A DNA stretch of 64,000 nt. Origin: Intestinibacillus massiliensis. Lineage in GTDB: Bacteria > Bacillota > Clostridia > Oscillospirales > Butyricicoccaceae. The DNA lies in the NCBI GenBank assembly GCA_029267335.1, contig JAJUJC010000001.1:124001-188000 (forward strand). The letters are read 5' to 3'. Under the pieces are notes generated by a model. It did not search any database. It was not told the DNA's origin and saw only the letters and a program-made list of their open reading frames with translations. The translations under genes and the position numbers were made by a program. Positions 13,395-59,520 of this stretch are shown one piece after another; position 1 is the first letter of the stretch; every line of letters begins with the position of its first letter.

Positions 13395-13660
13395 AAAAAA
13401 AGCTTCGTCCCTTAACAAAATTAAGAGACGAAGCTTGAATACTCCGCGGTACCACTCTCGTTGTCATACAGATATGACCACTCGGTGCACATCAAACAAT
13501 GTGCCGCCCCGATAACGGCGGGCTTCCGGTGCGACCTACAGGAAAATCTTTCAGCCGACTGCTCCCAGGCGAGTTTCATCCCGCTACGCTATTGCCTTAC
13601 ACCAACCGGCAACTCTCTGTAAGCTACACGCGATTACTTTACCCGTTCATCACATTTGAT
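13395..13660 (-). promoter_or_regulatory. T-box leader (likely Leu-responsive) upstream of leuA
   Basis: Antiterminator core GAGAGTGGTACCGCGG, then terminator AAGCTTCGTCTCTTAATTTTGTTAAGGGACGAAGCTTTTTTT; candidate CTC (Leu) specifier in GAAACTCGCCTGGGAG. Confidence 0.92.
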
Positions 13661-59269: not shown

Positions 59270-59315
59270 AGAACTTCCTCCCGCAAATAGTATTCTCTTT
59301 TTTTAGGCGGAGTAT

Positions 59316-59364
59316 GAAAAAAGACCTGTGTTTTCCGCACTTAGCATACGAAAAACACAGGTCT
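59316..59364 (-). terminator. Intrinsic terminator in the oadB 5' leader
   Basis: AGACCTGTGTTTTTcgtatgctaagtgcgGAAAACACAGGTCTTTTTT. Confidence 0.8.
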
Positions 59365-59460
59365 GGTCATTTCAGGTGAAGCCAGAATGTCCGTTGCCGG
59401 ACAAACACGCTTGTTGACTTCATCACGCGAAAAATACGCGCTGACTACTCCCCTTTGTTT
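59353..59460 (-). promoter_or_regulatory. Candidate metal-ion (yybP-ykoY-like) riboswitch aptamer in the oadB leader
   Basis: AAACAAAGGGGAGTAGTCAGCGCG...AAGTCAACAAGCG...GTCCGGCAACGGACATTCTGGCTT...GACCAGACCTGTGTTT; outer stem AAACAAAGG/CCTGTGTTT would compete with the terminator. Confidence 0.55.
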
Positions 59461-59520
59461 GCTTTTATCCTATCAGGTCACAGCATGAAAGTCAAGAAAA
59501 TTATTCTGGCTGCATCGAAA

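Follow-up and report, generated by a model that had tools for sequence, protein, structure and literature searches.

A predicted yybP-ykoY-type ON switch upstream of a stand-alone OAD_beta gene in Intestinibacillus massiliensis

The locus and its leader RNA

The DNA analysed here (the window) is a stretch of 64,000 nucleotides from Intestinibacillus massiliensis. A check of its sequence confirmed the leader of an oadB gene on the minus strand at 59316-59460, with a transcript start that the predicted promoter places at about 59460 (Table 1). The leader segments GGGGAGTAG and AGACCTGTGTTT lie on the minus strand at 59453-59445 and 59364-59353, respectively, and AAACAAAGG and CCTGTGTTT pair at eight of nine positions. 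Folding of the 156-nucleotide leader gives a z-score of -5.4 relative to shuffled sequences, none of 200 of which equalled it. The terminator stem extends from 59364 to 59322 and is followed by a T tail, AGACCTGTGTTT being re-used as one of its arms. An earlier note on this DNA had described a structured, terminator-containing oadB leader with exactly this pairing, and both points are borne out.

Table 1. Features of the leader and of the gene downstream, in window coordinates.
Feature	Position	Strand	Basis
Predicted promoter, extended -10 (TGnTAGGAT type)	59467..59495	-	Consensus scan: TTGACT-17-TAGGAT
Predicted yybP-ykoY-type aptamer	59353..59462	-	RF00080 match; CM R1, 88 bits; covariation
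L1 core GGGGAGUAG, first two G paired in P1.1	59445..59453	-	Invariant in 45 oadB leaders
L3 core GUCAACA	59412..59418	-	Sequence; leader alignment; comparison with published A48/A41
ACATTC, 3′ side of P3.2	59385..59390	-	Sequence; leader alignment; fold
Switch helix P1.1, 5′ strand	59452..59459	-	Complementary to 59354-59361; compensatory base changes among leaders
P1.1, 3′ strand, common to terminator	59354..59361	-	Covariation; terminator overlap
Intrinsic terminator, 19-bp stem and T tail	59316..59364	-	Equivalent hairpin in 60/64 oadB leaders
Ribosome-binding site GGGAGGAAG	59272..59284	-	Sequence
Stand-alone OAD_beta paralogue (orphan OadB), 375 aa	58142..59269	-	Pfam OAD_beta; separate clade; oadA operon elsewhere

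Assignment to the yybP-ykoY class

The earlier note had assigned the leader to the yybP-ykoY type and proposed a cmscan search as a check. In a search of 801 nucleotides the best-supported match was indeed RF00080 (Manganese), at 24.9 bits and E 9e-5, a score below the gathering score of 45 bits. SSRC10 (RF02617) also matched, at 25.7 bits, and there was nothing else of note. The RF00080 gathering score was reached in none of the 61 genomes of the window's family, mntP leaders included, and the low score is therefore a limit of the model. In this family the cut-off does not discriminate; it is a threshold set for the database and not a trait of the RNA itself. The mntP leader of the window's own genome, which is canonical, was missed by RF00080 at E <= 10, and the Mn2+ riboswitches of clostridia are probably under-annotated by this model. 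At Rfam gathering thresholds the whole window contains only one T-box and two tRNAs; the T-box leader, at 13421-13659 (-), is a clear one (129.7 bits).

Comparative evidence was drawn from 80 relatives collected by their oadB protein, independently of the RNA. The leader model matched in 66 of these 80 orphan-oadB loci, upstream of oadB in all except L079. Across an alignment of 45 oadB leaders, with P1.1 positioned according to the Lactococcus lactis structure, 88% of cells pair, as against 78% in shuffles, and 18 pairs change on both sides. None of 500 shuffles scored as high, and sliding the alignment by one column abolishes the helices. The covariation that the earlier note had asked for in related leaders is thus strong, and it becomes stronger still in a set of 99 leaders from several gene classes, between which P1.1 undergoes compensatory exchange of A-U and G-C pairs. 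The four-helix fold of P1.1, P1.2, P2 and P3.1 covaries in both sets. The L1 feature of the class, GGGGAGUAG/GGGAGUAG, is present in the window leader at 59453-59445. Among the 45 oadB leaders this motif shows no variation or hardly any, and the same is true of the C and two A residues in the L3 core and of most AGACC positions. Three loci upstream of orphan oadB (L026, L027 and L028) carry shortened leaders of the form GGGAGTAGTTGAAATG...GTCAACA..., in which hairpin P2 is seemingly absent and the switch arm is a different one, GAGACTTTTTGCAG; these were not recovered by R1.

In 60 of 64 orphan-oadB leaders, the AGAC arm that closes P1.1 can alternatively pair within a hairpin followed by a T tail, so that the ON-switch layout is conserved, and the competition between P1.1 and the terminator put forward in the earlier note holds at the level of overlapping segments. 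The element could in principle be a constitutive terminator behind a structured 5′ UTR that senses no ligand. An invariant L1/L3 core and a covarying four-helix architecture, kept across families, make this explanation highly improbable. Covariation, core motifs and architecture together place the leader in the yybP-ykoY (Mn2+) class, with a predicted role as a transcriptional ON switch.

The closest described counterpart is the L. lactis yoaB leader (RF00080). It shares with the window leader the L1 motif, the layout of P1.1, P1.2, P2 and P3.1, the 3′ AGACC and a P1.1 3′ strand common to an intrinsic terminator in an ON switch. In L. lactis, P1.1 is stabilised by Mn2+ and blocks the terminator (PMC11087558). 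The window leader differs in its target, a stand-alone OAD_beta gene, in its L3 tail, which beyond the discriminator A is longer and of another sequence, and in its score below the Rfam gathering cut-off. The Streptococcus element SSRC10, which Rfam lists as an sRNA, has the same GGGAGUAG...GAGACC plan as the oadB leaders, and Oscillospirales oadB leaders match its model at 25.7-42.9 bits. In S. pyogenes it lies upstream of a putative calcium transporter gene (SPyM3_0440); judged by its position and form, SSRC10 probably represents the leader transcript of a yybP-ykoY Mn2+ riboswitch after termination.

The metal site and the ligand

The base that discriminates Mn2+ is A48 in Xanthomonas oryzae (...CA48UACU) and A41 in L. 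lactis (PMC6754395). Its equivalent in the window leader is the A at 59412, the last base of GUCAACA (59418-59412). This L3 core is the family consensus, and [U/C]CAACA is present in 29 of 32 oadB leaders. The earlier note had described a variant core, with ACATTC as the L3 metal site and hence a possibly different ligand specificity. That placement is ruled out, the segment at 59390-59385 being the 3′ side of P3.2, and a variant core is not supported.

If the ligand were nonetheless another ion, Na+ would be the foremost candidate, since it would match a Na+ pump subunit. Genes for oxaloacetate decarboxylase are sometimes controlled by another cation riboswitch, Na+-I (DUF1646) (PMC9337991), and the L3 tails do differ in part: many oadB leaders continue after CAACA with AGCAU, UCAU or UCUU, and many mntP leaders with UACU. 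However, the L1 core and [U/C]CAACA are identical in the leaders of mntP and P-type ATPase genes, and the tails UACAU, AUCAU and UCAUG also occur in some exporter leaders. The tails thus vary as much before mntP and P-type ATPase genes as before oadB and give no ground for a changed ligand; an altered specificity read from them was rejected. The Na+-I riboswitch is a different RNA, and identity with it was rejected, as its model had no match up to E = 5 in the 801-nucleotide cmscan search. Moreover, the controlled gene does not appear to be a pump subunit (see below). It is accordingly very unlikely that the leader is a yybP-ykoY variant with another ion as its ligand. We infer Mn2+ as the ligand, and induction by Mn2+, from the riboswitch class.

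Genes under the same leader class

Genes of known function under the yybP-ykoY riboswitch nearly all encode Mn2+ exporters. R1 was built from orphan-oadB leaders and its scores therefore favour oadB leaders; among 247 genomes from the window's order, 93 contained a match. Outside the oadB set, 68 R1 leaders were followed by genes for MntP (34), P-type cation ATPases (25), CaxA-like exchangers (5), orphan OadB (1) or other proteins (3), with the target genes of example leaders assigned by Pfam. Behind these leaders of the same build, MntP, the P-type ATPases and the CaxA-like exchangers are established or probable exporters of Mn2+. In the window's own genome, a second leader precedes mntP (G000:C3:121850-121945(-)). 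With leaders of the same build preceding Mn2+ export genes, one of them in this very genome, an altered ligand is without support. The riboswitch-controlled mntP also rules out that orphan OadB replaces MntP.

Some yybP-ykoY-type leaders lie before genes of other kinds. Two precede genes for TetR-like regulators, which are not transporters (L126 in genome G169 and L153 in genome G255), and one (L125, genome G191) precedes a PhoU-like (DUF47) gene together with a PiT-type phosphate/metal transporter gene.

The target gene belongs to a stand-alone OAD_beta clade

The gene downstream had been taken for the beta subunit of a Na+ pump. A complete oadA-oadG-carrier-oadB operon lies on another contig of the same genome (G000:C3, about 204.5-208 kb), and the OadB that it encodes is 48% identical to the window protein; the R1 search gave no match in this operon region. 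In a tree of 130 OAD_beta proteins, operon-type proteins and orphans form separate clades (SH-aLRT 100 on both sides). The operon-type clade has 38 members, of which 28 adjoin oadA or a biotin carrier and none has the leader motif, whereas the leader motif accompanies 75 of the 92 members of the orphan clade and only one adjoins oadA. Likewise, oadA lies nearby in just 1 of the 80 orphan loci. In the window's family R1 was found just upstream of 11 of 24 orphans versus 0 of 56 operon-type matches (Fisher 2e-7, a value that ignores relatedness and is only indicative). About half of the orphans in this family lack the leader, as do those of Spirochaetales and Sedimentibacter, so orphan OadB is not always under riboswitch control.

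A pump subunit under Na+ control was rejected in view of the separate operon and clade, and a phage origin for lack of any match in phage records. The window gene is best described as a stand-alone OAD_beta paralogue and not as the gene for the beta subunit in the oxaloacetate decarboxylase pump. Judged jointly from sequence comparisons, the yybP-ykoY-type identity of the riboswitch and the stand-alone status of its target are highly probable.

Residues of the orphan proteins

The Salmonella structure places sodium at Asp203, Ser382 and Asn412; residues of importance to carboxybiotin decarboxylation are Glu40, Arg304 and Asn311 (PMC7274780). The orphans share with the decarboxylase beta subunit the OAD_beta fold family, and D203, S382, N412, Y229, N373, G377 and E40 are present in all 92 of them. 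They differ from it, besides their position outside the oadA operon and the Mn-type riboswitch upstream, in two groups of residues. R304 and N311, within a stretch aligned without gaps, occur in 19/92 and 56/92 orphans, and each in 38/38 operon-type proteins. The substitutions T148I and V416Q are fixed in the clade (92/92), and A386S and P411A nearly so. Gln416 and Asn412 are separated by a single turn of the helix, so the glutamine possibly points towards the second cation site. The window's own copy retains both R304 and N311, and their loss is therefore a trend of the clade rather than a feature of this copy. The simplest reading of these residues is that the orphans are cation transporters that have become independent of the decarboxylase.

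A different account would have the orphan serve as a spare beta subunit in a complex with the OadA, OadG and biotin carrier of the operon, so that Mn2+ would raise decarboxylation-driven Na+ pumping. The other subunits are encoded in the same genome, the window copy has kept R304 and N311, and every Na+-site residue is conserved in 92/92 orphans along with Glu40, which decarboxylation requires; Glu40, as well as R304 and N311 of the window copy, also tells against a stand-alone transporter. Yet many orphans lack R304 and N311, and the OadB of the operon comes with partners of its own and lacks the leader. In addition, no PYC_OADA domain was found in two genomes with an orphan, G031 (97% complete; orphan with leader) and G015 (92% complete). 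We therefore regard a spare subunit as unlikely. In genus g6, the sole OAD_beta protein of G019 and of G031 is of the orphan type, and G019 retains an oadA-like gene.

Proposed mechanism and function

At low free Mn2+, the 3′ strand of P1.1, CCUGUGUU, would fold into the terminator and transcription would stop. At high Mn2+, the ion would bridge L1 and L3 and P1.1 would close; the terminator could then not form, and the orphan OAD_beta gene would be transcribed. Its product retains both cation sites of the decarboxylase beta subunit but would be uncoupled from the carboxylase, for which reason it is most likely a secondary cation transporter that acts in the response to excess Mn2+, either as a Mn2+ exporter or as a Na+/H+-coupled partner of export.

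Export of Mn2+ by the orphan protein itself is a tentative hypothesis, somewhat more probable than the spare subunit but still short of an even chance. In its broader form, put forward with the same reserve, the stand-alone OAD_beta clade might be a Mn2+ efflux family (CPA/AT superfamily) derived from the decarboxylase-driven Na+ pump subunit, a reading that possibly unites the kept cation sites, the Gln gained beside the second site and induction through a Mn2+ riboswitch. The presence of MntP in the same genome, where no exporter is 'missing', is a counterpoint to it. Alternatively, the orphan could move Na+/H+ in support of Mn2+ export.

Implications

The RNA class is already known; the new part is the target gene. 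A literature search returned nothing relevant linking yybP-ykoY or manganese with oadB, although the gene lists of the 2015 primary papers may include it, and as far as this search showed the protein family had not previously been tied to manganese. The low Rfam scores suggest that the current model overlooks many clostridial Mn2+ riboswitches. The link to the riboswitch offers a direct, testable function for a protein that is widespread in gut Clostridia and mis-annotated there as a 'Na+ pump beta subunit'. If this function is true, the orphan proteins would be an example of a part of a primary Na+ pump that has turned into a free-standing transporter.
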